From Cafeteria roenbergensis (taxonomy: Eukaryota > Sar > Bigyra > Bicosoecida > Cafeteriaceae), in the NCBI GenBank assembly GCA_008330645.1, contig VLTN01000007.1:496001-560000 (forward strand): a stretch of DNA of 64,000 nt, in the 5' to 3' direction. The first letter of the stretch is position 1. Every line of letters starts with the position of its first letter. Below the pieces are notes generated by a model. It saw only the letters and a program-made list of their open reading frames with translations, did no database searches and was not told the origin of the DNA. Shown here piece after piece: positions 2,869 through 55,509 of this stretch. Both the position numbers and the translations under genes were made by a program.

Positions 2869-5800
2869 ATGACAGTGGAATCGAGGCGCTCCAGTGCGCC
2901 CTTCTGCACCCAGGTGAGGATAGGACTTCAACTTCGGCGTGTCCCGGAAATGTCCCCTGACGCGCCTCGGAGCGACCTGCGAGGCCGGGTCGGGCTTCCC
3001 CACGACTGCGCGGGCGCTTGCTTCAACGTGCACCTGCCCCTCGCCGCGCAGCAGCGCTGTGCTGTGCCTGCCTGGCGCCGGCCCTGAACCTGGGCAGTTG
3101 CGGCCAGCGACTGCTTGCGGCTCGCGTGCCTCCGACACCCGAACCGCGCCCCGCAGGTCCATGCCATAGTGCGCAAAAACCTGACAGTGACGATGCGGAA
3201 CAAGCGGGGGCTGGCGCGCGAGGTGCTCACGCCGCTCCTGTTCCTCGGCATCCTCATCGGCATGAAGCAGGCCCTGCCGTCGACCGAGCAGCCGCGCACG
3301 AACGCGAGGACAGGCATCTCCATCAGCGGGCTCGACTTGGCCATTGCTTCGACGAGGAGGAACGAGCTGTTCGTGGCCTCTTCTGCCGAGTGCGGGGCCG
3401 GCTGCGACGCGGCGGCAGTGCGCCTTGCCGATTTGCTGAGCGCCCAGGTCACGGGCTCCCCCTCCAATGTCACGTGGCTGCCGAGCGAGGCAGAAGCCCT
3501 AGACCGAATCAAGGCGGCCCCGTCCAATGCGCTGGGCGCCATCATCCTGGACTCCGCTGGCGGCCACCTGTTCAACCCTGGCGCCCTCAAGTACCGCATT
3601 CGCATGGACGGCGACGCCTTTGCGCCGGGGGCCACTGCCGCCTTCGCCCGCTCCTACGGCACGTTCGACCCCCAATCGACTCAGTCGCTCCTCTTGGTCG
3701 TCTCGGACATGCAGATGGCCGTCGTCAGCGCGTGGCAGCGTGCCGCCAACGTCAGCGGCGTGCTGCCCTCGCACGTTTACGCCTCCCGGCTGCCCAAGGC
3801 CGCCTTCTTCCCCGACAACGCTGCCACCGCGATGTCCTCCGTCATTCCCATCTACATGGTCCTCATTTTCTCCATGCAGCTCCGCGTCATGCTGCAAAAC
3901 GTACTTGAGGAAAAGGAGAAGAAAATTTTGGAAGCGATGCGCATGGCCGGCCTCACCGATGCTGCAAACTGGGTCGGCTGGATCGCAACCTCGGCCATCA
4001 AGAACGTGATTCTCATCGCCATCGTCGTCGCCGCGGCCAAGCTCGGGAGCATCTATCCCCGCTCCGACTGGTCCGTCCTCCTCGTCCTCTTTGGAACCTT
4101 CGCCTGCACCGCGGTGGCCTTTACCGCCGCTCTCTCCACCCTCTTTTCCCAGGCACGCGTTGGTGGCGCCGTTGGCATGCTCGGCTACATCGTGGCCTCC
4201 ACTCCTTCCTACGGGCTCCAGGCCCCCGGCGTCAGCCCCGCGGCCAAGCTCGCCGGCTCGCTGCTTGCCCCCACCGGCTTTTCCATGGCGAACAACATCG
4301 TCACGGTGGCAGAGGGCAGCGGCGAGGGCGTGAACTGGAACAACATCGGCGACCCCAGCCTCTCCCCCGTGGGGGTGTCCGTTGGAAGCCTCATCGGCAT
4401 GCTCGTCCTCGACACGATTCTCTACGTCGCGCTCGCGTGGTATCTCGGAAAGGTGGTTCCCAACGAGTATGGCACCACGCTGCCCCCCCACTTCCTCTGC
4501 ACGGCGCGCTACTGGCGGGGTCCGCCGCCCCCGGACTCGGCAAGCATCTCGGACGGCCCCCGCGCTGGCGGCTCCCCAGCAGCAGCAGCAGCAGCACGGG
4601 AGAGCGCGCCCAAGGCCGGCGACAGCTCCGGCTCGCTGCTCCCTCAGTACGGCGACCCCGAGCTCGGGGGCGCACCCGACGGGCTCGGAACCGCGCGATC
4701 GGCAGGCGGGCCTAAGATGGAGGCCGTTGACGACGAGGTGGCGCGCCGCGACCGCGTTGCGCTTCGCGGCCTCAGCAAGACGTATCCGTCGGGAGGCAAG
4801 GACGGGGGCCCTGTCAAGGCTCTCCAGCGTCTCTCGGTGGACTTTTACGCCGGCCAAGTGACAGCCCTCCTGGGGCCCAACGGCTCAGGCAAGAGCACAA
4901 CGTTCGGCATGCTGACCGGGCTCTTCGGCCCCACGGCCGGGGAGGCGTGGATCGCAGGGCGCTCCATCGTGTGGGACATGGCGGGAGCCCGCGCGCAGCT
5001 GGGCGTGTGTCCCCAGCACGACGTGCTGTTCGACACGCTGACCGTGCGGGAACACCTCGAGCTCTTCGGCGGCATCAGAGGAGTGCCCCCGGCCGACATG
5101 GCGGCCGACACGGACCGGTGCATTCGCGACGTCGGCCTGGAGGAGGCGGCGGACCAGCTGGCGTCCTCGCTCAGCGGCGGGCAGAAGCGCCGGCTGAGCC
5201 TTGCCATCGCGCTGGTGGGCGACCCGCCTGTGCTCCTGCTGGACGAGCCCACCTCCGGCTGCGACGCGGCCGTGCGGCGCAAGATCTGGGACCTGCTCAC
5301 TGCCAAGCGGGCCGCCGGTCGCACGATCGTCCTCTCCTCTCACGACATGGCCGAGTGCGAGGTCCTCGCCGACAGGGTGTGCATCCTGGCCCGCGGGCGC
5401 CTGCGCGTGGCGGGCTCCACCCGCTTCCTCAAGAAGGAGTTCGGCGTCGGGTACCACCTCACTGTCTCTGCCAGCGCAGAAGCCAGCAGCGCCAGGGTGC
5501 TCGACGTGGTCCGCGAGCACGTGCCTCTGGCGACCCTGGAGACGGACAAGCACGACGCCACCACCACCGACGAGCGGCAGGCCGCTGCCGCCGGCGCCGC
5601 GGCCGGCGGCTCCCGGGGCGGCGCCACTGTGCGGAGCGCCACGAAAGAGATCGCCGTGACGCTGCCGCTGTCGGCGGTTTCGCGGTTCCCAGCGCTGTTC
5701 GACGCGATGGACGCCGCCGGGGCAGACATCGGCGTCCTCGGATACGGGCTGGAGACCACGTCCCTCGAGGAGGCGTTCATGCGCCTGGTCAACGCTCTGG

Positions 5801-8688
5801 ACGTGGAGGCGGACGCTGACGAGGCGGCGCGTGCGGAGGCCGCGGGCGCGGGGCTGGCTGGCGAGGGCAGCGGCTCCGCTCGCCCTCGCGCAGCCTCCAC
5901 AACCGAGCTGGCTGCGGTGGGGAGGGCCAGGGCGGGCCTCACTGACGAGGCCGTCGTGTCGGTGGAGGGCACAGGCGTTCGCCTTCCCGCCGAGGCCGCT
6001 GGCGCCGCTGCCGCGCCCGGCGCCGGTGAGAGCGCGGCGCTGCTCAAGGCAGCCAAGCCGACCGGCGCCAAGCTCGGCGACATCTCCATCGCCTCTCGCA
6101 TGGAGCCGGCCACCCTCAGGCAGGTCAAGGCGGTGATGATGCGCCGCTTCCAGCAGGTGCGCCGTGACTACCGCGCCCTCTGGCTCCAGTGCGTCCTCCC
6201 CGTGGCGTTTTGCGCCATCTCAATCGCCTTCTCCTCCCTCTCGGAGCTCAACACCACGGTGGAGCCAAAGGTCGTGCCGTTCAGCACCGCCTCCTGGCAG
6301 GCAGGAATGCCAGAGGGCTCCCCCGTATCTGCGCTCACGGTGCCCTTCTGGGTCGACACGCAGGATGTCGACGCCTATGGCTCGGGCTCGGGCCCCAATA
6401 GCACCCAGCTGGCGGACCTGCTTCGCTCGACGTTCACCGCCACGGGAAGCGACCGCGGCATCGCCGGCCTGTCCGGCGGCAAGGCCAGACCGGTGGACGC
6501 GACGGGCCTGCTCAGCGCCGATCCCACCTCGGACGCCGCAGCTGCGTACCTCATTGGCCCTCCCGGCGAGCCGTCCCTCGGCTTCCAGGCCGCCGCAATC
6601 GTCGGCTCGCCGGCGACCAGCTTCCGCCCCGGCTGGACGATGGACATGCTGTTCAACACCTCCTTCGGCAACGCCCCTTGCGCGGTATTCCAGCTGGCCA
6701 CCAACGCCCTTCTGGCCGCCGAGAGCGGCCCGCTCGACGGCGCGTTCGACCCCCTCCCGCGGTCTGTCACCGGCTTCACGCCCTCGGACAACACCGGCAT
6801 GATCGGGTCCTACCTGTCAGGGACCCTGTCCGCCTTCTACGTGGCCATGGGCTTCGCCGTCCTGCCGGGCATCCAGGCCATCGCAGTGGTCAAGGAGAGG
6901 GAGACCCGCGTGCGCGCCGTGCAGGCGATCATGGGGCTGAGCTCGCAGGCGTACTGGGCAGGAACCTGGCTGTGGGACGGCCTCGGCATGGGGCTGGTCC
7001 CTGGCTTCGCGGCCATCGCAGTGCTCGGCATCGCGGGCCTCGTCCAGGCTGTGAACCTCCCCGCCGTGGCCGTCCTCTTCATCCTATTCTCGCTCAGCAC
7101 GCCGGGCCCGGCGTACGTGCTGTCCTTCGCCTTCGAGTCCGCGGCCTCGGCGCAGACATGGATCGTGATCATCACCACCGTCACCACAGTCGTGTCCTTC
7201 TTCGGCTCCTTCGTCCTGAGCTTCCCCGGCCTTCTCCCGCTCGACAGCCCCGTCCCCAACGCCATCAGCATCGCCTTCCAGGTCTTCCTTCCCCCCTTCT
7301 GCCTCGCCAAGGGCCTGGCAGACGTTGCCACGAGGGCGACGTGCCCGAGCGTGTTCAACCCCGTGCCCCCCGACGGCGGGCCGTGCGTGGTCCCCAATGC
7401 CTTTGACTGGGACATCGCCGGATCGAAGCTGCTCTTCATGGCCGTGTCCATTCCTGGCTGGGCGCTCGTCATCGCCGTCATCGAGTACTTCCAGGACCCC
7501 GCGCGCGGGGAGCCCCCCACCGGCCCGGACGCCTACAAGGACCCCCTCAACGCCGTGGGAGCGCCCCGCGATGCATCCGGCCGCCTGCTTGTGGAGGAGG
7601 ACGACGACGTCGTCGGCGAGCGGGCCCGCGTTGAGTCGCACGGGCTCGGGTCCGCCCCACTCGTCGCCTCGTCGCTGCGCAAGGTGTACTTCGGGCACGC
7701 GCGCCCCCGTGTGGCAGTCAGCCGCGTGGACCTCGCCGTGCCCGACGGCGAGATCTTCGGCCTTCTTGGCCCCAACGGTGCCGGCAAGACCACGCTTCAG
7801 AAGATGCTCGTGGGCGACCTGCGGCCCTCGGCAGGAAAGGCCGCGATCGACGGAAGAGCCGTTGGCGCGGCCCGCGGGACGGGCGGCGGAAAGGGCGGCA
7901 TCGGCTACTGCCCGCAGTTCGACGCCCTGGTGCCCGAACTGACGGGGCGGGAGATGCTCCGGTTCTACGCCAGCGTCGCAGGGCTGCCCGAGTCCGAGGT
8001 GGAGGGCTACATCGCAGACGCGCTCCAGTCCGTAGGGGTTTCCGAGTTCTCCGACCGGCCCTGCAAGAACTACAGCGGCGGGAACAAGCGCAAGCTCTCC
8101 CTCGCCGTGGCGTACCTGGCCGCGCCCCGCATCGTCTTCCTCGACGAGGCCTCTGCGGGCGTGGACCCCGTCGCGCGGCGCAAGCTCTGGGAGGTGATTT
8201 GGCGCTCGCGCGCCGGCCGCTGCTCCGTCGTGACCACGCACGTGCTGGAGGAGGCGGCCACGCTCTGCTCTCGCATCGGCATCGTGGTATCGGGCGTGAT
8301 GGCCTGCCTTGGCTCCCCGCAGCACCTCAAGACGCGCTACGGCGCGGGCCTGCAGCTCGACGTCGAGTGCGACGACGTCAGCTCCCTGGTGACCGAGCTG
8401 GCCGAGGCTGCGAGCGCAGAGGTCAGCATCGTCGAGCAGCACGCCAGGTACGCGCGCATCCAGGTGCAGGTGTCCTCCTCTAAGGCGGCAGGCGGCGCGG
8501 GCCCCGAGCGCCCACCGGTTGCAGCTGTGTTCCGCGCGCTCCTGGGCAGGGAGGACGTGACGGACTTTTCCGTCACCCAGCCGACGCTGGAAGCAATCTT
8601 CCTGAGGTTCGCCAAGGCCCAGGAAGCCGCCGAGGCGGCGGAAACTTCCTTGGCCGCGGTCCCGGTCAGCACGGGCCTCTTCTCGTGA
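2869..8688 (+). CDS. Full-length ABCA-family ABC transporter
   Basis: ABC subfamily A membrane transporter, a family that moves lipids or sterols; 1858 aa. I infer a 15-codon first exon (2869-2913, MTVESRRSSAPFCTQ), a 243-bp intron (2914-3156, gtgagg...ccgcag), and a long exon 3157-8688. The splice gives FCTQVHAIVRKNLTV, the usual ABCA start before TM1 (EVLTPLLFLGILIG); no in-frame ATG lies just before 3157. Order: TM1, large exo-loop, TM2-6, NBD1 with Walker A GPNGSGKST (about 588-596), signature LSGGQKRR and Walker B VLLLDEPTSG; a linker; TM7 near 6180, second exo-loop, TM8-12; NBD2 with GPNGAGKTT (about 1553), signature YSGGNKRK and IVFLDEASAG. Both ATP sites keep the Walker A Lys and Walker B Asp-Glu, so it looks catalytically complete. 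Substrate unknown. The short first exon is the least certain part. Confidence 0.93.
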
Positions 8689-33900: not shown

Positions 33901-35552
33901 GCAGTGCCGTCTGAGCGGACAACAGTCCTCGGCTTGCCGCGCAGACGCCGGGACACCAGGTCAAGATCCCCGCGGGGCACGGTGGTGTCCACTGCAATGA
34001 ACAAGCGGGGCGCGCCTGACCGCGCCCACAGGGGCTGGATCACCACGACTTCGGTGCAATGCGGTGGGCACACGCAGCTGAGAACTGGGGCCGTGTCTCC
34101 CTCTTCGCGGTGAACCAAGGTCTGCGGGACCCCGCCTGGTCCAAGAATGACGCTGCCGGTGGCCGAGAACGCTCCTGAGAGCTGCTTGATGCCATGAGCA
34201 GCACGCCGAGCTGCAACTTGGCACACCGGGTGCGGAACCTTGGCCAACAGTGCGGGGGTCAGCATGCGAGAACGCATCTCCTGCGATACCACACCGTATG
34301 TCTCGACCGTCACTGCCGGGGCCCTGCCAGCCATGGACCTCGCAGACACCCACAGCACGTGCGCCTCGTTGTGGATGTCCACCATTGCGGCCGCCAAGAC
34401 GATGCATGCTTCAGGCCGAAGGGGCTGGGAAAAGTGGTTGATGGGCAGGAGAAGTCGCATCAGGCGGCTGAGCGCCATCTGAGCATCCGGCACGGCCGCA
34501 ACCGCCTCCATTTCTCCTGGGGTGATTGGGCCCGGGCTCACGCTCGCCAGCGACCTGACCATAGTGGAGCGTGCCAAGGGGTCTGGGAGCACAGGCATTG
34601 CCCGGCGGCGTGCGCGGCGGTCAGAAAAGCCAATCGGGCGACTCCGCAGCTTGAACGAGTCGAGCAGCCCGGGCATCGGGGCTGCAGGCCGCAGCACTTG
34701 ACTGTCGTCGTGCGCCGCGTCCTCCTGCCAATCGCTGTCCTGAGCGGCACCTTCCTCTTCCTCGAAGCTGCGTGGGCCAGTGCCGGGGACCGGGCTGAGC
34801 TGCTCGGGACCTTCGGGGTTGCTTGTCATGCTGGGGCCGGCGTGGCCAGCTGCCTGGAGCGGCGAGAGCTGCCGGCGGCTAGGCGAGCCCAGGCTGTCGT
34901 TCTTTGGGGACGCAACAGAGAGCGCGGCTTCAGACACCCGCGGGCTTCCAGGCTCCACCTGTGACATTGGTGTGGCGCTGGGCTTTTCGCCTGTGTCGCC
35001 GGCGGCGCCAGCTGCCTTTTGCGGAAGCCGAAGCCGCGGAACGTTGCCGCGGTCCTCCAAGTCTGGCCGGATTCCAACGCCGTTGGGGCCCATCACACTT
35101 TCTGCTGGCACGGTCGGAGGCTCCGGGAGGACCGCATAGTCCGGCATTGGCGGCACCACAACGGGCGCTGCCTTGCGCGTCTCCAGCGCCCGGAGCATGG
35201 CTTGCTTGTCTGCGGCTGTGGGCGCGAACCCCATGCCAGTGTACTCTCGCATCGAATCCGAGCCGTCGGCTGCGCCCCCTGCTTCAGGGTCGTCGGGGGG
35301 CGTGCGTTTCGGCGCGCGCGGGCTCCCAACGGCAGCACCGGGTTGCGTCGCGCTCCCCCCAGCGGCGTCGCTGCCAAGTTTGCCAGACTGGGGCGAAGGC
35401 CCGATTGATCCACCCGCGGCGCCGGAGGCGCCGCCTGGGGGCGAGCCCGTCCGTCCAATCGCGGGGGCAGGTCCAGCGGGTTCACCCGTCTCCTCGCTCG
35501 GCCTCGGAGGGGGCTGCAGCGTCCTCAGGGAGCCCCCGGCACGAGGGATCAT
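30948..35552 (-). CDS. C2-domain protein with coiled coil and tandem-repeat stalk
   Basis: 1534 aa from the ATG at 35552 (the open frame continues upstream without a better start). Segments: disordered N terminus with a short ordered piece (MREYTGMGFAPTAADKQAML); an ordered domain at about 359-545 (MALSRLMRLLLPINHFS..., FSATGSVILGPG, LFIAVDTTVPRGD) that I cannot name and that has a GAF-like strand pattern; a coiled coil at about 860-897; a charged tandem-repeat stalk at about 1092-1305; and a C-terminal C2 domain (1403-1534). The C2 domain keeps Asp residues at the Ca2+ loops (MDAVKDPYAVLEL, VLDHDRVTRDDPIGSA) so Ca2+-dependent membrane binding is likely. Together this suggests a membrane tether or scaffold, which is inference. 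It faces the USP gene tail-to-tail at 122 bp. Confidence 0.8.
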   Translation of the reverse strand: MIPRAGGSLRTLQPPPRPSEETGEPAGPAPAIGRTGSPPGGASGAAGGSIGPSPQSGKLGSDAAGGSATQPGAAVGSPRAPKRTPPDDPEAGGAADGSDSMREYTGMGFAPTAADKQAMLRALETRKAAPVVVPPMPDYAVLPEPPTVPAESVMGPNGVGIRPDLEDRGNVPRLRLPQKAAGAAGDTGEKPSATPMSQVEPGSPRVSEAALSVASPKNDSLGSPSRRQLSPLQAAGHAGPSMTSNPEGPEQLSPVPGTGPRSFEEEEGAAQDSDWQEDAAHDDSQVLRPAAPMPGLLDSFKLRSRPIGFSDRRARRRAMPVLPDPLARSTMVRSLASVSPGPITPGEMEAVAAVPDAQMALSRLMRLLLPINHFSQPLRPEACIVLAAAMVDIHNEAHVLWVSARSMAGRAPAVTVETYGVVSQEMRSRMLTPALLAKVPHPVCQVAARRAAHGIKQLSGAFSATGSVILGPGGVPQTLVHREEGDTAPVLSCVCPPHCTEVVVIQPLWARSGAPRLFIAVDTTVPRGDLDLVSRRLRGKPRTVVRSDGTALAMARVLSPAAAQRAAAQRAGASGSGNWRGTMLSTADSEPWRPSFAVDTLDLAERRVTSVRTSLSSLLRSRSRGIRNAGVRWAQQRPGLCLSARDFTSLVNQLNRIAAESGDGKVYIERGLRDLAPPPEDDRADVPSTAPADPAEMQGGLEGPARPGERERLQMSATAGHLRLGHQAFHEGQALQLPQGGHEERGDSLDKLAQPDHAGTHTPSEQESPDDFDIDLSMPMSTRAAVRASFAAPGSPVADLMVSPRSLEIASGSQGDVASHSRAKGKEVATQFSGSSQDTSVPSSAAPASNAQTAASDCATQPVVAELVKRLESAEAKIAQLTKVAETAKQDAEAAALKASMATAVPVKPKRVPQVSLRALEQGVAPVPPAVKALHLSGLLSAHSVHPVADEGQTEPSTPRISDAEEPSGGATESSPRASQAASLGGEACNASSGRGAASQAGAEALAATSGRDASLSPIGALSSKNAPAEGGASEVGSTTGDDSDLEPQAATEAAASRAATAALAGAIAKEATESAQAAAAARAKAGAHAAQQQAEQEPRAGGEATAAAGGDAGEKPTAGKQEPRAGEEPMAGEQGATAGGEQEPKPSEEPKPSEEPKPSEEPMTGEQGATAGGEQEAKASEEAKASEEPMAGEQGATAGGEQEAKPSEEPKPSEEPKPSEEPMAGEQGATAGGEQEAKASEEAKASEEPMAGEQGATAGGEHGATAGGKQEAKASEEPKPSEEPMAGEHGATAGGEQEAKPREEAKAGGLEDGSRPAPGQVGATADAEALAAPAGQPADTAGLPAHDGHAGGQDKAKGEEPSSPAAESKDADDAPGHIAGAAAASPASVASPVAVWPADVPLSLVVDLQKGRGFTGGDGFMDAVKDPYAVLELGTSKARSKVAENQADPIWEQLLNLDASSLAGLPEATLCIAVLDHDRVTRDDPIGSAKVRLRAADCAVNGDWVDVPALSVRKGGTGPPQLVWLRWRVSSGQ
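31636..32276 (-). repeat. In-frame degenerate tandem repeat in the C2-protein gene
   Basis: Units built from EEPKPSEEP or EEAKASEEP followed by MAGEQGATAGGEQEAK, alternating in higher-order blocks; in the DNA the core is repeated with very few changes on the minus sense. All three plus-strand frames stay open across it, which shows codon-level homogenisation rather than antisense genes. Confidence 0.88.
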
Positions 35553-35863
35553 GGCCCTCTGTCGCCGTGGTCTCGAGCTCCACGGCTCCTCGCCCGCTCC
35601 AGTGCCAGCAGCGGACAAGGCGCCGGCGGCCGCAACGGTCTTGCAGCTCCGGCCGTCGCAACGCCGGAAACCACGGCTCTGGCAAGCCGACGCGCGGCTC
35701 TGCCAGAAGCTCGTCCACCCGCCAGCGCCCTGCCGCCCAGCAGGAAGCTTCCCCGGTCGCCCCGGGGCCACCCGCCTGCTCGGAGCGCACCCCCTCCACC
35801 ATTCGGGGCTCCGGCTTGTGCCGGGGGGCTGCGGCTGCGAGTCTGAAAGGCGCCCCACCGCCG
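35553..35863. promoter_or_regulatory. Divergent region, C2-protein / Gag1-like gene
   Basis: 311 bp between inferred starts; no specific motif seen. If the small plus-strand gene has further 5' coding exons, they would lie here. Confidence 0.35.
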
Positions 35864-36244
35864 ATGCTGGCTGGAGCACGGCGCGTTCCGCTCGCCGCTC
35901 CCGGCGCCGGCCCGTCTGCGGGGTTGGCGCTCGCCGCTCCCGCATGCCGGCTCACATCCACTAGCGCGGGTGCGGGGCGCCGGAAGCCGAAGCGCCGGCC
36001 CTTCGTCAACTACGGGGCGCGATTGTGGGAGCAACAGCGAACCTTGTGGCTCCGGCCCCCGCTCAGCCAGGAGGACGCGCCGGCCAGGCCGAGGCGCGTC
36101 TTGTCCAATGCCCAACTTGAGCGCTTGCAAGCTCTCATTGCGAATCCGACGAGCAAAGGGGCATTGCCTTCGCCGATGCCATTGAGCCAGGCTGTTGAGC
36201 GCATCGTGGACATCTGGGAAGACGGAGGGTCGTTCCGGCGCTGA
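35864..36244 (+). CDS. Small protein with Gag1-like (DUF4050) domain
   Basis: 126 aa from ATG at 35864. The last ~80 residues hold FVNYGARLWEQQRTLWL, a charged spacer, NAQLERLQALIANPT, then PMPLSQAVERIVDIWEDGG. This order (VN.G...W...R..W, short helix, P.PL..+VD.+.DIWE.+G) is that of the Gag1-like clamp / DUF4050 family of fungi and plants, whose yeast member acts on nutrient (TOR) signalling. The N-terminal 45 residues are low complexity and the start is uncertain. The family link is by pattern only. Nothing in the neighbourhood adds to its function. Confidence 0.55.
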   Translation: MLAGARRVPLAAPGAGPSAGLALAAPACRLTSTSAGAGRRKPKRRPFVNYGARLWEQQRTLWLRPPLSQEDAPARPRRVLSNAQLERLQALIANPTSKGALPSPMPLSQAVERIVDIWEDGGSFRR

Positions 36245-36561
36245 GCACGGTCAGGCGATGAATGCGGCGCCCCGTGCTGTGCGCTGGCCGGGGGTTTGGC
36301 TCGCGCAGAGGCGCTGGGCTGCGGGATCTCGCAGCAGCGGCCCTGCGCTTCGATTGCCGGTTGAGTGAACATGGCGTGGCCCGCCGCCCCCCCAGCGCGC
36401 CCACAGCGCTGCGTTCAAATGAGCTACGAGGCGACCCCTGAGGGGTCTGGCCCCTTGCGCACGCCACCGGGCCGTTGGGCCTTGGGCGGCCTCGGCATGC
36501 ATCCACAAGCAAAGCAGCGCTCGCTGCGAACGCGTCTGCCCCGCGACGATCGCCCCTGCAC
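36245..36561. other. Convergent gap
   Basis: About 320 bp between the ends of the Gag1-like gene and the coiled-coil gene. No feature seen. Confidence 0.4.
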
Positions 36562-38439
36562 TCAAGCTGGGCTGCGAGCCTTTCCCACGGGGGGCAAACT
36601 TGTTGTCGCGGTACCAGAGGGCCCTCCCCGCACAGCTGTGGCCTGAGCCAGAGCGGGCTGGAATCCGCCTCGGCGAGACGGAGGGACCGAAGCCAATTGT
36701 TGGCACATTGCCAGCTCCACCTGTCGCCGCAGAACGCTTGCCTCGGCTTCGAGTTCAGCCACTCGCTGTCGAAGCCTCTCGTTCTCCTTTTGCAGCAATG
36801 CAGCCGACGACGCGTGGCTTTCGGTCCCAGGAGGCCTGAGCAACGCCGGGCTACCGCCTCCAGCGCCGGGCAGCGAGCCATGGGGCCCTGTCGCTGGTGC
36901 TGTGCCAGGGCGGCTGCCTGCTGCTGGCGGCGCTGCCGCCTCTGCTTCATGACCGGTGCAAGATCCCGAAGCAGGAGCAATTGCATCCGGTGGGGGCTTG
37001 TCTACAGCGGCGAAGACAGCGCACACGACTCGCAAGTCTGCATCGGAGAGCAGCAGCGCCTCCAGGTTCAAGGCGAGCCACGCAGCCAGCTGCTGAAGCA
37101 CGCCTCCTCCCCTTGCCAGGCTCGCGGCGGCAGCTAAGCTCGCCGAGCTTGTTGCCTCCGTCTTGCTCAACAAGTTTACGGTTCGCAACTCAAAATGAAC
37201 CCTGTGACCCGCCAGGGCAGCTTGCTGTCGAGGGTTTCCGCGGGGGACGACTATGCACGACGCCACGGCGGTCCCCGATGTGCGGCCTTGGGGTCGGGGG
37301 AGGCTGGCCGGCACGGCGACGAGCTTCAGCCTGGTCAGGCGCCGTGCTTCCAAGCTCACGCGATTGCTGGGCGTCAGTGGCGGCGAGGTTGCCTTCAGGA
37401 ACTGGACTCGGGGCTCCCCGGACCGCGACGCCCCAGTCCACCACACCTCCATGCCAGCCAGACTGGGCTCCGAGTGCAGCTGCGCGCGTTGGCGCCACTC
37501 AGTTTGGCTACATCCCCACGAGGAGGCCGCAAGGGGCGCTCCACCGCTCGGGGGACCTGCGCGCGTGGATTCCAGTGCTTTGGCGGGAGGCCGGTCTGGC
37601 GAGGCTGAAGACCTGTGAAGCCGCGACGAGGCGGCTGAGGATGCGAGCGCTGCACTCGGAGCTGAGTCCGCTTCGGCAGCTGAGCACATGGTTTCCAGCG
37701 CCAGAGCGGCGTCGCTGCTAGCTCCATTGCCCAGCGCTCTCAAGGACACGGGTCCCAGCTTGAGGGTTCGAAACCTTCGGCTCTTGACGGAAAACGCATC
37801 CACCTCCACGAGAGGAGGTGCAGCTGCCCGGCAGGCACCCCTGAACCAGGTCAAGACCACGTCCGTGCGACGCCTGTCTGCCCAGAAGCACCCGGACAGC
37901 ACCTTCCAGTCAGGAGACTCCTCCGCCGCCCCTGGCGACTGAAAGTGATGAAACGGCCCCATCCTCTCGTAGAGCAGTGAAACGCAACTAGCCTCGCCTC
38001 CAGCCTCAGCTGCGTGCATGGCCTCGGCCTCAGCGGGCTGCAGGTCTGGCCTTGAACGCAAGTCACTTGATGCCGCTTTCCGAGCTGCACTCCTTGACCG
38101 TGCCTCAGCTCGGTCGCGCCGCCTTCCGGCGCGCCGAGCTGCACTTCGAGTGCCGCTGGCTCCCATCGCTGCCTGGCTGGGCTGGCTTTGAGTCCACCGC
38201 GCAACAGAGTCTGTGCCATGGCCCACCTCGTCAGCCTCCAGCCGAAACGAGTCCCCCTCCCGCGCCTGGCCTCGACCAGGCGATGCATCCGTCAGCGGAC
38301 CACCAACCGGCACTTCCAGCAAGTCGAGTGCCTGCCCCGCTCCAGGGCGAGGTTTCGCAGTGCGCATCGGGCTTGGTGCAGAACCGTGGCCACCGGAAAC
38401 CGAGGCGGAGTCGGCCCTGGAGCCCGTCTTCTCGTCCAT
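36562..38439 (-). CDS. Unrecognised protein with C-terminal coiled coil
   Basis: 625 aa from ATG at 38439 (MDEKTGSRADSAS). I do not recognise it. The first ~130 residues are disordered and Arg/Ser-rich. From about 145 to 450 there is ordered-looking sequence with beta character and aromatic residues (LLYERMGPFHHFQSPG, WKVLSGCFWADRRRTDVVLTWF, LVEVDAFSVKSRRFRTLKLGPVS, RVHFELRTVNLL), followed by a helical piece (LQQLAAWLALNLEALLLSDAD), a Gly/Pro linker and a parallel-type coiled coil (ENERLRQRVAELEAEASVLRR). No catalytic motif or membrane segment is visible. It faces away from the pseudokinase gene across about 170 bp. Confidence 0.6.
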   Translation of the reverse strand: MDEKTGSRADSASVSGGHGSAPSPMRTAKPRPGAGQALDLLEVPVGGPLTDASPGRGQAREGDSFRLEADEVGHGTDSVARWTQSQPSQAAMGASGTRSAARRAGRRRDRAEARSRSAARKAASSDLRSRPDLQPAEAEAMHAAEAGGEASCVSLLYERMGPFHHFQSPGAAEESPDWKVLSGCFWADRRRTDVVLTWFRGACRAAAPPLVEVDAFSVKSRRFRTLKLGPVSLRALGNGASSDAALALETMCSAAEADSAPSAALASSAASSRLHRSSASPDRPPAKALESTRAGPPSGGAPLAASSWGCSQTEWRQRAQLHSEPSLAGMEVWWTGASRSGEPRVQFLKATSPPLTPSNRVSLEARRLTRLKLVAVPASLPRPQGRTSGTAVASCIVVPRGNPRQQAALAGHRVHFELRTVNLLSKTEATSSASLAAAASLARGGGVLQQLAAWLALNLEALLLSDADLRVVCAVFAAVDKPPPDAIAPASGSCTGHEAEAAAPPAAGSRPGTAPATGPHGSLPGAGGGSPALLRPPGTESHASSAALLQKENERLRQRVAELEAEASVLRRQVELAMCQQLASVPPSRRGGFQPALAQATAVRGGPSGTATTSLPPVGKARSPA

Positions 38440-38609
38440 GTCCGGCCTCTCAGGGCGCCGTGCGGGAGCCCAGGACTGAACCGGCCGTCCCACTGCCGGT
38501 GCGCAGGCTTCAAGGCGCCCTGCGCCGCAACTGTGGCGGGCGCTCACGCTCGGCCCCGGCAAGCGGCTCTGCCGGCCTCGGCAAGCGGCTGGGCGGGCTG
38601 CAAGCGCGC

Positions 38610-41600
38610 ATGCGGCGCACCAAGCGGCCCATGGCTGATGCTTCGGCCTCGAGGCCGGAGGCTGCCGCCGCGAGTGATCGCGAGCTTTTCCGCAAGCGGT
38701 TCAAAAAGGTGCGACTGTGCCCTGGGCACTCGGCGGGCGGCTGTGGCGCCTGAACGATGCGGTCGGCCTCTGACAAGAATGCCCAGCTCGGCCCGATGAA
38801 GCTGTGCCGTGCGGCCGGCTGCCAGCGTGGCGTGCCCCTGGAGCGCCATGATTGCTTTCGCGCGTGCGACTGTGCCCTTGGCGCCGTGCCCGAGCTGTCC
38901 CGTGCCGCAGAGCGACAAGCTCGAGGAGCTCGAGGGATCTCGAGATGGAAAGCGCATGTGAGGCAACGAACCCGAGCCTGTGGCGTCCCTGCGGCGTCCA
39001 GGAACGGCAGGTGGCATGCGAACCAACTTTGGAGGAGGGCCACGCCGCCGGGACTCTCTGTATAATGCAGTTGGCTGGGCTTGCCTTGCCGTCTCGGCAA
39101 GCATTCGGCCGCGCCCTGTTTGCACGCTCGGAAGCCCCGGGCGAGCTTCCAACTCTGCGTGCCGCCCCGAAACCTAGCCGTGCTCGTCTCATGCGCAGCT
39201 ACCGAGCGGTGGACAAGGACACCATGTTCGAGGTGGCTTGGCATGAGCTCCCTCTCGGCAAGGCTGAGCAAGTGGACGACCGCGCAGCCGAGGCGCCCGT
39301 CCCCGAGCACGAGAACCTTCTCAAGGTCGTCGCCAAGTGGGAAGAGCCCGGCCCGCCCAAGAAACTGGTCGTTATCACCGAAATGGTGGACGCCGGCACG
39401 TTGCAGCTTCACATCGAGCGCATCAAGGACGACGTCCGCGTCAACGTCGTCAAGAAGTGGTGCAGGCAGATCCTCTCGGGCCTCCAGCACCTGCATGTCA
39501 CAACTGGCCGGGTGAGCAGAGGCGAACCCCCCGATCGGGGCTCGTTCACTCGTGCCCAGCGCCGCGCCCGCTACGCAGCGGCCACCTTCGGCTCTAAGCC
39601 TCGCTGCTGCCCAAACAAACACTGCTGCCCTGCCGCTGCCTTTGCCTCCCCTTTTGCGGCCATGCTCCCCTGCCCCCCGACACCCGCCAGCTCCTCGCCC
39701 TCCTCCCGCTCGCCTGCCTAGTCGCTGCGCGCAGCTTCACGGCGACGTGCGCTTGAACAACATCTTCATGAACAGCGTCACCGGCGACGTCCGCCTTGGC
39801 TATCTCGACGTTGAGCACACGCTTGGGAGTGCGTCCGGAGGCGGCACCAGCTCCGCAACTGCTGCCTACGCTGCCCCAGAGGGCGTCCACGGACCGCCCG
39901 CAGATATTTACAGCTTTGGCATCTGCCTCCTCCACATGGTCACAGGGGAGCGCCCCTACTGGGTTGAGCCCAGCGAGCTGGCCACGCAGACGCAGCAGGC
40001 CAAGCAGAGCGGCCAGGACCCCATCACGCTCACGAAGTACCGCTTCGATGCGTCGGCAGAGCGGATCATCAGAGCGTGCGTCAGCTTCAACCCCGCGGAC
40101 CGACCCACGGCGGCGGAGCTGCTGGCCGACGAGTGGCTGGCCAGGAGAGCGCCAGGCGGAGGCGCCCCAGCGACAAGCACTGCTGGGCAAGCGCCCGCGC
40201 CTGCGCCTGGCACCGCACCCGCCCCGGCACCGGCCCCTGCGCCTGCAGCAGCAGCGGCACCTGCGCCTGCGCCTGCGCCTGCGCCTGCGCCTGCGCCTAC
40301 AGCAGCGGCGCCTGCGCCTGCAGCAGCGGCAGCGGCAGTGGCAGTGGCACCATCGCCCGCCCCTCACCCAGCTGCCGCTGGCGCGGGCGCAGATGCCGGC
40401 ATCGGAGCACAGCCCAGGCCCCACTCTGCGCACGGTGGCTCCCACCAGCCAGGCCACGGAGGCGCCGCCTCCGTCGGCGAGGCGCGCACCCCTCACGACG
40501 CCACGACAGCAACGGACCCAGGACGGCCCGACGCCGGCGGTGCGGCGTCTCTTGACGGCACAGGCCAGGGCCAGGCGCCCCACCTCGCACCGAGCGGAGC
40601 GGGCCACGACGCGCCCATCGGGCAGCGAGTCCTGGGCCCGGGATCCGCTGCGGCCGCGGCGGCAAGCGGGGGCGGCACTGGGGAGGCGGGCGACCAGCTC
40701 AGCACCGCCCCGCCACCCATCCGCCAGGTGGGCCCGCCCCTTCCCTCGGTCACTGCCGACATGGCTGACCCCGCCAAGCCCAGGCAGGCCAACCCCCAAC
40801 TCCGGGTCGGGCAGCCGGGAACTCCGTCGGCGTCGCCAGCCGAGGCCGGCAGCACCGCCGCAGTTGCTGGCTCAGTGGTGGGCCACACCCCTCGTCCACC
40901 AGCCAACGAGCGGATTGGCCCCGCGGCGCCCGGCGCCACCTCGGACCCGACCGCGCTGGCTGCGGCTGTGGCCACGTCTGGCAGCGCTGCTGCCGCCGGG
41001 GCGGCGCCTCAGCCCGCCGCCCGCCCCGCAGACGTGCTTGCTGACCCCTCACCGCCCGGCCCCGATCCGTCCCTGCGACGCCTCAAGGGGATCACGTTCG
41101 AGGAGTTCAAGCTGAAGCGGGTGTCTGTCAGCGCTCACATGACGCTCTTCTTCAAGCCACCCCCCGGCGCTCGAGGAGCAGACGACGTCATCAGGTATCG
41201 CACCGTGGCCTTCACCTTCAACCGCGACGAGCGCAACCGCATCGCCAGCCTGGCGCGCGAGCTGGTGGACTGGAGGCTGATCCACCCCGAGGACGAGGCG
41301 GTGGCCACGGCTTGGCTCGATGCCTCCCTCGGCCGGCTTGCCGCCGCCCCCTACGCATACTGCAGGCCCCTCCGCGCATCGGCGCAGGGCACCGACCCGA
41401 GCGGCTCCATGCGCAGGCGGCGGGACGCTCGGCCTCGCCAGGACCTCGGCTTCGATCCCTCGGGCGCCGCCCAGCGGACCCCTGCAGAGCAGGACCAGCC
41501 CGCTCTGCCGCCGCCCGCGAGAGACACTGGCGCGCAGCAGGGCACGGCACCGCCAGCAGTGCCTCCAGCGCACGCGCCGGCCGGCGACCCCATGCAGCCC

Positions 41601-41813
41601 GCGTCAGCGCCCCGAGACCGGGCTGGCTCCATCGCATCCACGGCTACGGGCGCCCCAGCGGCCAACGTGTTGCTGCAGAGGCAGCACTCGCCCGATGGCG
41701 CGCCCGCGCATGCCAGCTCTGCCCACGGCGACGCGAGCTCGGCCGCCGAGCGGCACCTTCCGGGCAGCGCCCAGGACGCGGGACAGGCGGACTCCGACCG
41801 TCGGACTGCGTAG
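38610..41813 (+). CDS. WNK/NRBP-family pseudokinase with OSR1-type (CCT) C-terminal domain
   Basis: Four exons: 38610-38708, 38911-38957, 39199-39511, 39735-41813; 845 aa (or start at 38631, MADASAS). The 47-nt second exon restores the kinase N-lobe: ELEGSRDGKR|IYRAVDKDTMFEVAWHEL, with the EVAW motif lacking the beta-3 Lys as in WNK and NRBP kinases. Then EHENLLKVVAKW, VVITEMVDAGTL and KKWCRQILSGLQHLH. The catalytic loop reads LHGDVRLNNIF (Asp157, Arg159 in place of Lys, Asn162), and the DFG/DLG position is Y176-L-D, so the metal-binding Asp is gone. The Gly loop is also degenerate. DIYSFGICLLHMVTGE and NPADRPTAAELLADEWL are normal. A (PA)n linker leads to residues ~600-690 (FEEFKLKRVSVSAHM, YRTVAFTFNRDERNRIASLARELV), resembling the OSR1_C domain that binds RFxV/I motifs. 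Probably a signalling scaffold, not an active kinase. Confidence 0.87.
40263..40310 (+). repeat. GCGCCT hexamer repeat coding (Pro-Ala)n
   Basis: About eight near-perfect GCGCCT units within the pseudokinase linker; flanking (GCA)n and (GCC)n runs extend the Ala/Pro tract from about 40190 to 40360. Confidence 0.8.
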
Positions 41814-42589: not shown

Positions 42590-43975
42590 TCAACCTTCGT
42601 CGGCGGGGGACTGGTAGAGCTGTCCGCTGGAGGCACCTTTCCGGACAATTTCAGCAAACTCGTCCTCGAAGAAGAACTTTTCAGCCCCGAAGGCTGGCTT
42701 GAGGTCGTCGAGCCAGACCGCCTTGTCGTCGTACGCAGCGAAGAAGGGCTTCTCGGCCCAGGCAGGGTTGCGGGCCTGAAGGAACTTGAACACCATGACC
42801 TTCTCGCCGTTGACGTCAGCAGGGCCGATGTAGTGCACCTTCCCGGGGTCGCAGCTCATGGAGGGCCCGCGCACGGTCCTTGCCAGGCCGGACTGCTGCG
42901 TGAAGGCCTCGGTGAAAATGTCGTAGGCCTTGACGAGCGGCACGTTGAAGTACTCCCTGGGACCAGTGTCCCTGCTGACGAAGAAGTAGTAGGGCACGCA
43001 GCCGAGGCGAACCTGCTCCTTCCACATGCGGGCCCAGGCGGCGGCGTCGTCGTTCACGTGGCCCACGAGGGGGGCCTGGGTGCGAATCTGGGCGCCGGTG
43101 TTGCGGATGCGACGGATGGCCTCGCGCACGACGGGGGTCCCGAGCTCGGCTGGGTGGGTGAAGTGTGCCATGATCGACACGTGCTTGCCGGCCTTGACAG
43201 CGTCCTCAAGCAGACGGAGCATAGGATCAGCGTCGGCATCCGTGACGAAGCGGTACGGCCAGTACGCGAGAGACTTGGTGCCGATGCGGATGGTCTGAAC
43301 GTGGTCGTGCTCGGCCGAGTTGAGAATGGGGCGGATGTACCTTCCCATCTGCTCGGCGGTCATCACCATGGGATCGCCGCCGGTGAGCAGCAGGTCTGAG
43401 ATGACCTTGTTCTTTGCGAGGTACTGGGCGAGGAGCTCGGCGTCCTTGTTCGCGAACTGCAGCGGGCTGCCCACCGAAACGAATTGCGCCCATCGGAAGC
43501 AGTACGTGCAGTATGCGTGGCAGTACTGCGCCTCGGTGGCAAAATGCAGGGCCGTCTCCGGGTACTTGTGCTGCAGTCCCGGCAGCGCCTCGCCTGACAC
43601 CTTCGGTACGTTGAGCGTCTTTTGCCCCGCGGGGTGCGGGTTGAGCTTGGCGCGGATGCTGTTCGCCTCGTCCTGCAAGCGAACACCCTTGCCCTCGCCG
43701 CTCTCGATGAGCGCGCGCATGTGCGCGGTGGACTCCTCGTCAAGCATCTCGGGCTGAGGTACCACAAGCTGGAAGATAGGGTCCGTAGGGGCGTCCTCCC
43801 AGCGGATCAGCTCCTCGACGACGTAGTTGTTGGTTCGCATCGGGAGCACCGTCGCTGGCGTGTAAAAGTCCAGCCACCTGGCCGCGACATCGGGGGGCGC
43901 ATGTGCTTCGAGAAGCCCCTTGATGCTGCGCTTGGTCAGGACTTGGTACTCTTTTGCCGCGACCTGCTCCGCCAT
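42590..43975 (-). CDS. Lysine 2,3-aminomutase-family radical SAM enzyme
   Basis: KamA-family enzyme, 461 aa. The best-known members convert L-lysine to beta-lysine by a radical mechanism using a [4Fe-4S] cluster, S-adenosylmethionine and pyridoxal phosphate. Cluster motif CHAYCTYCFRW: Cys152, Cys156, Cys159, with the following Arg conserved. LLTGGDPMVM is the SAM-contact motif, AHFTHPAEL matches THFNHPxE, and Lys379 in SCDPGKVHYIG is the PLP Schiff-base lysine. The C-terminal ~60 residues (FFAAYDDKAVWLDDL...) replace the usual tetramerisation tail. No mitochondrial leader follows ATG 43975; the frame stays open further upstream, so an alternative start exists. The family also contains glutamate 2,3-aminomutase and the EF-P-modifying EpmB, so the substrate is open. 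The family is mainly bacterial and archaeal and rare in eukaryotes, so transfer is likely. Confidence 0.9.
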   Translation of the reverse strand: MAEQVAAKEYQVLTKRSIKGLLEAHAPPDVAARWLDFYTPATVLPMRTNNYVVEELIRWEDAPTDPIFQLVVPQPEMLDEESTAHMRALIESGEGKGVRLQDEANSIRAKLNPHPAGQKTLNVPKVSGEALPGLQHKYPETALHFATEAQYCHAYCTYCFRWAQFVSVGSPLQFANKDAELLAQYLAKNKVISDLLLTGGDPMVMTAEQMGRYIRPILNSAEHDHVQTIRIGTKSLAYWPYRFVTDADADPMLRLLEDAVKAGKHVSIMAHFTHPAELGTPVVREAIRRIRNTGAQIRTQAPLVGHVNDDAAAWARMWKEQVRLGCVPYYFFVSRDTGPREYFNVPLVKAYDIFTEAFTQQSGLARTVRGPSMSCDPGKVHYIGPADVNGEKVMVFKFLQARNPAWAEKPFFAAYDDKAVWLDDLKPAFGAEKFFFEDEFAEIVRKGASSGQLYQSPADEG

Positions 43976-44384
43976 GTTATGCAGCGGCGAAGCGTTTGTG
44001 CGAACTTGCTGCGACCCAGCAACGCACGGACCAAGCACGAGCAAGGACAGTTTGCGCCGCGCAGACAGCCCTTCCCACTCCCAAGCACGGACAAGCTCCC
44101 TGCCCCCAGTCAAACCCAAGGAAGGGGCGTGCTTTGCGGCCGTGTCTGGGCTCGGAGCTACGTGCGAAGCGCCCGGAGCAGCATGCGCCATCACGAGGCG
44201 CGAAGAATTCCCGCCTACCCGCTTGCCCCGCCCCGCTTGCCCACGGGTCATTGGCGGCACCATCGTTGCTGCGTTTCATGCTGGGGGTGTGCCGCAAGTG
44301 GCAACACGGGAGGCGCTGCACGCCGTTGCGTCGCTGCCTTGTCCTCGCAAGCCAGAGGACTTGAGCGAAGTCAGGCGATGCGAG
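43976..44384. other. Gap between the aminomutase and the small spliced gene
   Basis: About 410 bp on the minus side, containing the aminomutase promoter. A frame reading MKRSNDGAANDPWASG on the minus strand (about 44230-44277) has some protein character and could be a further exon of the small upstream gene, but I cannot join it convincingly. Confidence 0.3.
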
Positions 44385-53726: not shown

Positions 53727-55169
53727 TCACGTGCCTGGCACGCCATCGAAGGGCCCCACAGCGCTGCCTAGGGCCACCCGAGTTCGCACCACCCCGCTCC
53801 TGCCGCTGGCCGCCCCGCGCGCCACAGCGCCGCCGTCCGCCTTCGACTCGGCCCGGCTGCCCGCCCGTGCCGCGCCGCGCCCCCCTGGCGAGCGCAGCGG
53901 GCCGTCGCGGTGGCCACCTCCGTCCCCTCCGTCGCCAGCGTCGCCCACCTCCTCCGCCTCGCGCGGGGAGCCGAAGATTGTCCGGTGAAGCGCCTCCAGC
54001 ACGAGGTCGTCCGACAGCAGGCGCTGCACGACAAGCCGCTTATCAGAGCCGTCCAGGTCGCTGGCAGCTGCACCGCGGGCGGCGCCAGCACGCCGCGAGG
54101 CAGCGGCGCCCGCGCCGCCGGCGCCGCTGCCCCCGGCCGCACGCCGCTTGCGTTCCTGCCTCCGCACCTCGCTGACGCACTCCGCCAGCACGGCCTGGAG
54201 GGCGCGACGCTCGCTGGACTCCGCCTCCGCTGCCACGCGCTGCCGCCTCGTCTTCGTCCGCTCGGCACTGAGTTGCGCCGTCAGCCGGGCCACCTGGGCC
54301 TCCAGCCTCGCGACCGTGCCCGCGGACGGCGCGCCCGCCTGCCCGCCCCTCGCGCTGCCACCCGCTGCCACCCCTTCACCTGGGCCGCCCGGCCGGCGCG
54401 CGTGCCCCAGCGGGGACGCGAAGTCGCCCGCTTGCTCGAGCATGCCCGAAGACCCGGCCATCCCGCCGTCGACGTCCTCCCCAAGGGTGATGAAGGGGCC
54501 CCTGCTGGCGGGCCCCTGGTCTGCCCGCTCCCTCGCCCCGAGCGGCGGCAGCGTCGCAGCGCCCCCTCCCCCGAAGAAGCCTCTGTGGTCGCCGCCTCCG
54601 CCTCTGCCGGACTCGTCGGCCCCGTCAAGCGGCGCCGGCAGGGACGCCGCTGAGGGCTCGGTCATCCGCAGCTCCAGCTCTGCCCGCAGCAGCTTGTTGT
54701 CCTTCTTGGCTGCCTTGAGCTGCCGGCTGAGCCACTGCCGGTCCTCCTCCACTGCGCCCAGGCGCTCCCGCAAGGCTGTCACGTCGCGCTTTAGGGCAGT
54801 TGTGAACTTGTTCAGGCGCAGGGCCTCCTTGCGGAACCAGGCGCACTCCTCGGTCAGTCGCTGCATCCGCTGGTCTCGCTCCTGGCGCAAGCGCGCCGCG
54901 TCGGCCTTGTCCTTCCAGGTTTGCAGCTCCCGCTGCACGCTGTACATGTGCCCTCGATACGCTGACAGGAACTCTTGCTCTTGCTTGTGCAGGACGCGGC
55001 TCACTTTGGAGTTGAGGGTGACCACAACATCAGAGAGCTGCTCGTGGAGCTCGCGAACCCGCCCCATGGACTCGGGCTCCGCCACCACACGGTCGCCCTC
55101 ATCGTTGATCGCTGTCAGACGAAAGGCCCCCGCGCCGTCGGCTTTGCCTGCAGCCGCTCCGTCGGCCAT
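53727..55169 (-). CDS. Conserved-looking coiled-coil protein
   Basis: 480 aa, single exon, ATG at 55169 (MADGAAAGKADGAG). Residues ~40-170 form a continuous coiled coil with an unusual fixed pattern (ECAWFRKEALRLNKF, RERLGAVEEDRQWLSRQLK, KKDNKLLRAELEL). After a Gly/Pro linker a second helix runs from about 285 to 345 (VARLEAQVARLTAQLSAER), and a short helical block near 385-405 (DKRLVVQRLLSDDLVLEALHRTIFG) precedes a disordered tail. The WFR.EAL.L and DRQWLSRQLK patterns remind me of conserved ciliary/basal-body coiled-coil proteins, but I cannot name the family, so a flagellar role is only a suggestion. It is convergent with RRP4 and divergent from the Cds1 gene. Confidence 0.7.
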   Translation of the reverse strand: MADGAAAGKADGAGAFRLTAINDEGDRVVAEPESMGRVRELHEQLSDVVVTLNSKVSRVLHKQEQEFLSAYRGHMYSVQRELQTWKDKADAARLRQERDQRMQRLTEECAWFRKEALRLNKFTTALKRDVTALRERLGAVEEDRQWLSRQLKAAKKDNKLLRAELELRMTEPSAASLPAPLDGADESGRGGGGDHRGFFGGGGAATLPPLGARERADQGPASRGPFITLGEDVDGGMAGSSGMLEQAGDFASPLGHARRPGGPGEGVAAGGSARGGQAGAPSAGTVARLEAQVARLTAQLSAERTKTRRQRVAAEAESSERRALQAVLAECVSEVRRQERKRRAAGGSGAGGAGAAASRRAGAARGAAASDLDGSDKRLVVQRLLSDDLVLEALHRTIFGSPREAEEVGDAGDGGDGGGHRDGPLRSPGGRGAARAGSRAESKADGGAVARGAASGRSGVVRTRVALGSAVGPFDGVPGT

Positions 55170-55509
55170 GGTTGCGGCCTGCGGAACTCAGTCGCGACCG
55201 CGCGAAAACGCGCCGGCGCCTCAACGCCAAGCTGGCAAGGGGCTGGCGCGCACGGCTCCTCTCGGGACGAAAGCACGCGGCCTGCGGTGACCTTCTGCCG
55301 CCAGTCTGGCGGCTGGAGCCCGGCCCGCCCGCGCAGCGAGTGGCGCCGTCTCCGGCAGGGCAACCAAACGCCTCTCTCGACGGCCCCCTGCGCAGGGCTC
55401 TGCCGGCCTTGCCTGCCGCGGACAGACTTGTCGCGCTGGGACCCCACAAGGCGGAGAAGTGCCGGCGGCAACCGCGCTCGCAGGCAAGCAACTCTCGTGC
55501 GATCCACCC
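55170..55509. promoter_or_regulatory. Divergent region, coiled-coil gene / Cds1
   Basis: 340 bp between start codons. No motif stands out. Confidence 0.4.

Follow-up and report, generated by a model that had tools for sequence, protein, structure and literature searches.

A WNK-clade pseudokinase with a probable C-terminal CCT-type domain in the bicosoecid Cafeteria roenbergensis, a candidate non-catalytic partner of WNK kinases

The closest described systems are the animal pseudokinases NRBP1 and NRBP2, in which, by definition, the VAIK, HRD and DFG motifs are all altered (PMC12266122). In the same paper, NRBP1 is reported not to bind ATP and is modelled to pair with WNK1 via its kinase fold; it binds and activates WNKs, and activates WNK4 in vitro (PMC12266122). 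Eight hydrophobic pocket residues are also named there for the NRBP1 CCT domain (PMC12266122). According to a 2025 survey with a BLAST cut-off of 1e-28, NRBPs occur from sponges and placozoans onward and are called animal-only; its passage on distribution reports none in choanoflagellates, fungi, amoebozoans, and plants, and does not name stramenopiles (PMC12254500). A review extends the conservation of the WNK domains that sense crowding as far as protists (PMC11472293), and the published kinome of the oomycete Phytophthora infestans is given as containing one WNK (PMC3019232). Among the titles and abstract openings of open-licence papers, there was no report of a CCT-bearing WNK-clade pseudokinase outside animals.

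The locus described here lies in a stretch of 64,000 nucleotides of the C. roenbergensis genome, hereafter the window (C7:496001-560000), with a GC content of 66-76% in 4-kb steps; the genome searched comprises 36,303,456 bases in 167 contigs. The features of the gene are as follows.

39011..39059, + strand: candidate upstream exon end, in which FGGGPRRRDSL joins YRAV and may be read as a Gly-rich loop; it lacks codon bias, and its start and reality are uncertain
39199..39511, + strand: exon 3, from N-lobe beta-2 (YRAVDKD) to alpha-E (HLHVTTGR), matched by phmmer to WNK chains once joined to exon 4, with AG before and GT after
39230..39250, + strand: beta-3 strand EVAWHEL, with His aligned at the usual position of the VAIK Lys
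39512..39734, + strand: intron GTGAGC...CGCAG, read from the sequence, with continuous WNK similarity once it is removed
39735..41813, + strand: exon 4, with C-lobe, Ala/Pro-rich linker, CCT-like domain, tail, and stop (open frame of 692 codons; Pfam Pkinase 53.3 bits)
39738..39761, + strand: catalytic loop HGDVRLNN, aligned with HRDLKCDN of WNK3
39801..39809, + strand: Tyr-Leu-Asp at the DFG/DLG position, from the sequence and alignment
40152..41069, + strand: low-complexity Ala/Pro-rich linker, open and without codon bias
41133..41342, + strand: CCT-like domain (AHMTLFFK ... DASLGRLA), from profile and pairwise scores, codon bias, and low-confidence models

The main part of the gene is, as judged from its sequence, real. 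Segments 39199-39511 and 39735-41813 are exons of one gene, whose joint product is matched by phmmer as a WNK-clade kinase domain against PDB sequences; exon 39199-39511 searched alone against Pfam gave no match. Among 2000 runs of a first-order Markov model built on this DNA, 7 reached an open frame as long as the 692 codons of exon 4. When codon scores were trained on 24 kinase regions of 5059 codons (training mean 0.265; random 70%-GC DNA -0.375), exon 3 scored 0.077 in frame and -0.593 and -1.06 in its other sense frames, and the kinase part of exon 4 (0.059) and the CCT segment (0.198) likewise outscored their other sense frames by a clear margin. No such lead is seen for the linker (-0.123) or the exon 4 tail (-0.103), and intron 39512-39734 reaches 0.029 and 0.044 in two of its frames; therefore, the codon test supports the reading frames, but alone it cannot mark the exon boundaries. 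From its acceptor, the intron upstream of exon 3 is taken to be of phase 2 and to lie immediately ahead of the Tyr of the VY motif. As read by eye, a catalytic-looking WNK-like gene of the same genome, C45, also has a phase-2 intron at this place, next to the Tyr/Phe of KxV[YF] on its upstream side.

The 5' end is less clear. A 47-nt exon had been proposed in the initial annotation; the frame-keeping stretch of that length is 39013-39059, which is preceded by GT rather than AG and thus is not spliceable by the GT-AG rule in that form. With the AG nearby (39009-39010), the exon would be 49 nt long and would have to be entered in phase 1, out of register with the phase-0 end of the proposed exon 38610-38708. 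The codon bias that marks exon 3 and the kinase and CCT parts of exon 4 is absent from both upstream pieces (38610-38708 and that ending at 39059). From 34000 to 39190, a Gly-loop pattern was fitted by five exon ends of phase 2, of which the one at 39059 (FGGGPRRRDSL) alone looks like the Gly loop of a WNK on visual inspection; this sole candidate, on an exon that is itself a candidate, is without the WNK Gly-loop Lys. Translation may also start at the ATG at 39016.

Other open frames of the window may be mentioned briefly. A minus-strand frame at 36565-38700 overlaps the proposed first exon, and its 36565-38445 part has no Pfam match. A 561-codon frame just downstream on the opposite strand (42593-44275) looks like a conserved protein. 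A large frame at 3088-8685 on the plus strand is that of an ABC transporter, with two matched ABC_tran stretches and ABC2_membrane_3 in Pfam. Pfam searches of four other window frames returned this transporter and sub-threshold LRRs, and nothing further. Light-harvesting proteins, which were sought in the genome, gave no match.

With respect to family, the best phmmer matches in the PDB are WNK3 and WNK1 chains (114-120 bits), followed by Nek7 (53 bits) and OSR1 (48 bits). An OSR1/SPAK-type kinase identity is rejected on the difference between 120 bits for WNK and 48 bits for OSR1. In a tree of 19 rows, which sampled 13 other kinases out of the 151 kinase matches in the genome and left out row L040, six WNK/NRBP rows split from the 13 others at 98/98; the rows of NRBP1 and Arabidopsis WNK1, in the tree as in the alignment, are presumed sequences. 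The reading of the protein as a WNK/NRBP-clade pseudokinase in the initial annotation holds, given the best PDB matches, this grouping, and the losses of motifs described below.

The strand EVAWHELPL bears out the expected lack of the beta-3 Lys. In the catalytic loop (LHGDVRLNNIF), Arg replaces the catalytic Lys, the Asp and Asn are retained, and the Arg of HRD is also lost (HGD). Tyr-Leu-Asp occupies the DFG position, in mid-exon and with WNK similarity on either side; an alternative exon supplying DLG, for which there is thus no need, is rejected. Thus, in place of the intact HRDLKxxN and DLG of a catalytic WNK, the protein has HGDVRLNN and YLD, and all three of VAIK, HRD, and DFG are altered in the alignment. 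In addition, Arg stands at the alignment column of the residue taken to be the alpha-C Glu, and ATAAY replaces GTPEF of the P+1 loop, with APE retained. Since the losses are spread across the active site, a single sequencing error is argued against, and the kinase domain should be catalytically dead.

The segment 41133-41342 is a probable CCT domain on sequence statistics. Its global alignment to the CCT of NRBP1 scores 43.0 (z 6.55), which was reached in 0 of 2000 shuffles and, in a second run, in 3 of 20000, and which exceeds all 1878 other tiles; the NRBP1 sequence used in the CCT comparison is a presumed one. The z values against the other CCTs are -0.47 for WNK1, 1.59 for SPAK, 1.76 for WNK3, 1.98 for WNK2, and 2.51 for OSR1, and as a yardstick, known pairs gave 3.7 (OSR1-NRBP1), 1.3 (SPAK-NRBP1), and 7.1 (WNK1-NRBP1). 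A profile of five PDB CCTs was matched as well by 3 of 10000 shuffles, a WNK-only profile by 12 of 10000, and an NRBP1-only profile by 9 of 10000, each with none of the 1878 tiles; a first three-sequence WNK profile was matched as well by 10 of 5000 shuffles. With a six-sequence profile no shuffle among 10000 did so, and the three tiles of 1878 that scored at least as well all belong to one unrelated coiled-coil-like ORF. When 730 whole open frames were scored, the frame of the gene came second with the six- and five-sequence profiles and was not among the first four by the OSR1, WNK or NRBP1 profile. A CCT-profile match on the minus strand (53730-55187) was discarded as noise, its alignment covering about 20 residues of an apparent coiled coil.

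The C-terminal CCT-type domain of the initial annotation is therefore upheld by sequence statistics, best of all against NRBP1, and is not recovered by the OSR1/SPAK-only profile, by Pfam OSR1_C, or by fold searches. The OSR1/SPAK-only profile does not beat chance: 635 of 10000 shuffles equal or exceed the segment, as do 58 of 1878 tiles. Pfam at an E-value of 10 found no family in 41070-41400, nor any OSR1_C (PF12202) match across the genome, and a sequence search of the region against the PDB gave no CCT match; hhalign of the region gave a probability of 17.8% (P 0.0014) over 38 columns. Two single-sequence models have a beta-beta-alpha-alpha core in the aligned region, the first with one extra strand at each end. 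No CCT was among the matches listed in Foldseek and VIA searches of these models, which are weak tests at mean pLDDT of 60 and 53. By hand alignment, the eight hydrophobic pocket positions of NRBP1 correspond to Met, Leu, Val, Phe, Leu, Leu, Trp, and Leu, two of which are set elsewhere by the program alignment. Among the acidic peptide-binding residues, Glu492 of NRBP1 corresponds to Glu in the hand alignment, and Glu484 lies in a loop with two additional residues, where nothing clearly matches it.

In its overall layout, the protein resembles NRBP1 and NRBP2 in being a WNK-clade pseudokinase with a C-terminal (here probable) CCT and with VAIK, HRD, and DFG all altered, including Gly for the Arg of HRD (presumed NRBP1 sequence). 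It differs from them in its catalytic Asp, which is kept, its long Ala/Pro linker, its stramenopile host, a kinase identity of 27%, and the lack of any TSC22 match over the cut-off in the genome, where a TSC22 search gave five matches, all below it. With WNKs (human WNK1-4, plant WNKs, and the genes C45 and C43) it has kinase similarity and the missing beta-3 Lys in common, and with human WNK1-3 the CCT-like domain after the kinase, as well as the intron position with C45; unlike WNKs, it lacks the active-site motifs, and its candidate Gly loop lacks the WNK Lys. OSR1 and SPAK are alike in having a C-terminal CCT-type domain (probable in this protein); however, its kinase is far closer to WNK, and the OSR1/SPAK-only CCT profile does not match it.

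Candidate partners are present elsewhere in the genome. A WNK3 query gave 147.6 bits for C43 and 124.3 bits for C45, at most 88.5 bits for other kinases, and 56.6 and 47.9 bits for the two window exons taken singly. C43 carries GASK, HRDIKPEN, and DFG, and C45 carries GSFKK, HRDIKCDN, and DLG; with these motifs intact, both look catalytic. Both also have very long low-complexity C-termini, with a poly-Gln run in C43. No CCT was found in 9 kb of the C45 locus and 16.5 kb of the C43 locus (two overlapping pieces), both unannotated and scanned with weak profiles, and the best of 1527 tiles on the gene strand of these loci scored 26.5 against the NRBP1 CCT, versus 43.0 for the window protein. A query with a presumed human OSR1 kinase sequence found a 55%-identical stretch over part of the domain at C1:477265-477693 (locus C1:475000-483000), with one TGA inside; across frames, the locus is that of an OSR1/SPAK-like kinase (VAVK, HRDIKAGN, and DFG). 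The plus-strand open segments of at least 25 amino acids at this unannotated locus yielded no CCT with the same kind of weak profiles. Eight SLC12 matches lie on four contigs.

That the domain reads RFxV/I peptides finds no support here, the strict motif being absent from the scanned WNK-like and OSR1-like pieces and one of two acidic residues not being clearly kept. No strict R[FW]x[VI] occurs in the C45 main frame, the C43 frame (two pieces) or two OSR1-like frames; since less than one is expected by chance in each, this is only mild evidence against an RFxV ligand in these partners. Looser RFxV-type matches in the same pieces are RYPI, RHRL, RHGM, and RHTL. The search for such motifs in the main SLC12 open frames was unproductive; the SLC12 N-termini, where docking motifs would be expected, lie outside the resolved frames.

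Our best guess, by analogy with NRBP1, is that the window protein scaffolds and allosterically regulates the C45 or C43 WNK without catalysis of its own. The protein would transfer no phosphate; its pseudokinase fold would pair with the kinase domain of C45 or C43, and its CCT would bind a third protein by a short linear motif. In this way, the pseudokinase may assemble or allosterically switch a route from WNK through the OSR1-like kinase to SLC12 in ion and volume control. We put the probability of this whole reading, in which a pseudokinase of the WNK clade that docks through a CCT-type domain at its C-terminus serves a bicosoecid as a non-catalytic WNK partner, at about one half. A bolder version, in which the only CCT of the WNK pathway sits on a dead kinase as the sole docking hub, and in which NRBP-type regulation predates animals or has arisen twice, is doubtful.

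With respect to origin, the protein had been called intermediate between WNK and NRBP. Its place in a clade with both stands, and its position within that clade may be read either way: in the AU test, a sister position is compatible with NRBP1 (p 0.369), C45 (p 0.435), and C43 (p 0.195), as are groupings with C43 plus C45 (p 0.203) and with WNK3 plus Arabidopsis WNK1 (p 0.301). The somewhat favoured origin is a WNK duplicate peculiar to this lineage, in which catalysis was lost within the stramenopiles in convergence on NRBP, its CCT being kept from an ancestral WNK CCT-like domain, with no special link to NRBP. The compatible positions beside C45 or C43, the intron common to C45 and the window gene, the beta-3 His common to C43 and the window protein, and the reported absence of NRBP outside animals in the survey passage (PMC12254500) are all consistent with such an origin; however, the CCT is closer to that of NRBP1 than to any WNK CCT tried, and the catalytic paralogs yielded none in the stretches scanned.

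It is unlikely that the gene is a true member of the NRBP lineage, which would place the WNK/NRBP split before animals and have NRBP lost or overlooked elsewhere. The NRBP1 sister position in the AU test, the resemblance of the CCT to that of NRBP1, and the Gly for the HRD Arg in both proteins (presumed NRBP1 sequence) would agree with this origin, but the kinase domain is only 27% identical to NRBP1 versus 33% to WNK3, and both the window protein and NRBP1 form long branches that may attract each other. With its BLAST cut-off of 1e-28 (PMC12254500), the survey might have missed a relative with 27% identity.

It is improbable that the gene is a pseudogene in decay or a WNK gene damaged in assembly. 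Such a gene would account for the missing codon-biased first exon, the lack of in-frame codon bias in the exon 4 linker and tail, and the single copy found in the genome, but in-frame codon bias persists in exon 3 and in both the kinase and CCT parts of exon 4, the reading frame of exon 4 is uninterrupted along its whole length, and the changes consist of scattered substitutions, not frameshifts. More improbable still is that the protein, lacking the DLG Asp, binds nucleotide or transfers phosphate in some unorthodox way with the remaining HGD Asp and NN Asn, since the DLG Asp, the HRD Arg, the catalytic-loop Lys, and the residue aligned with the alpha-C Glu are lost and the candidate exon lacks the WNK Gly-loop Lys.

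Overall, this marine single-celled predator probably combines a dead WNK-clade kinase with a probable CCT, a layout otherwise described from animals, where the switching on of WNKs by NRBP1 under osmotic stress was shown only recently. If the preferred reading as a non-catalytic WNK partner is true, the pairing of an active with a dead WNK would be older, or easier to evolve, than thought, because one protist would then bring together cotransporters, an OSR1-like kinase, WNKs whose motifs are intact, and a pseudokinase of the WNK clade that bears a CCT-like domain. Cafeteria would then offer a small, cultured marine cell in which the pairing of active and dead WNKs may be tested.
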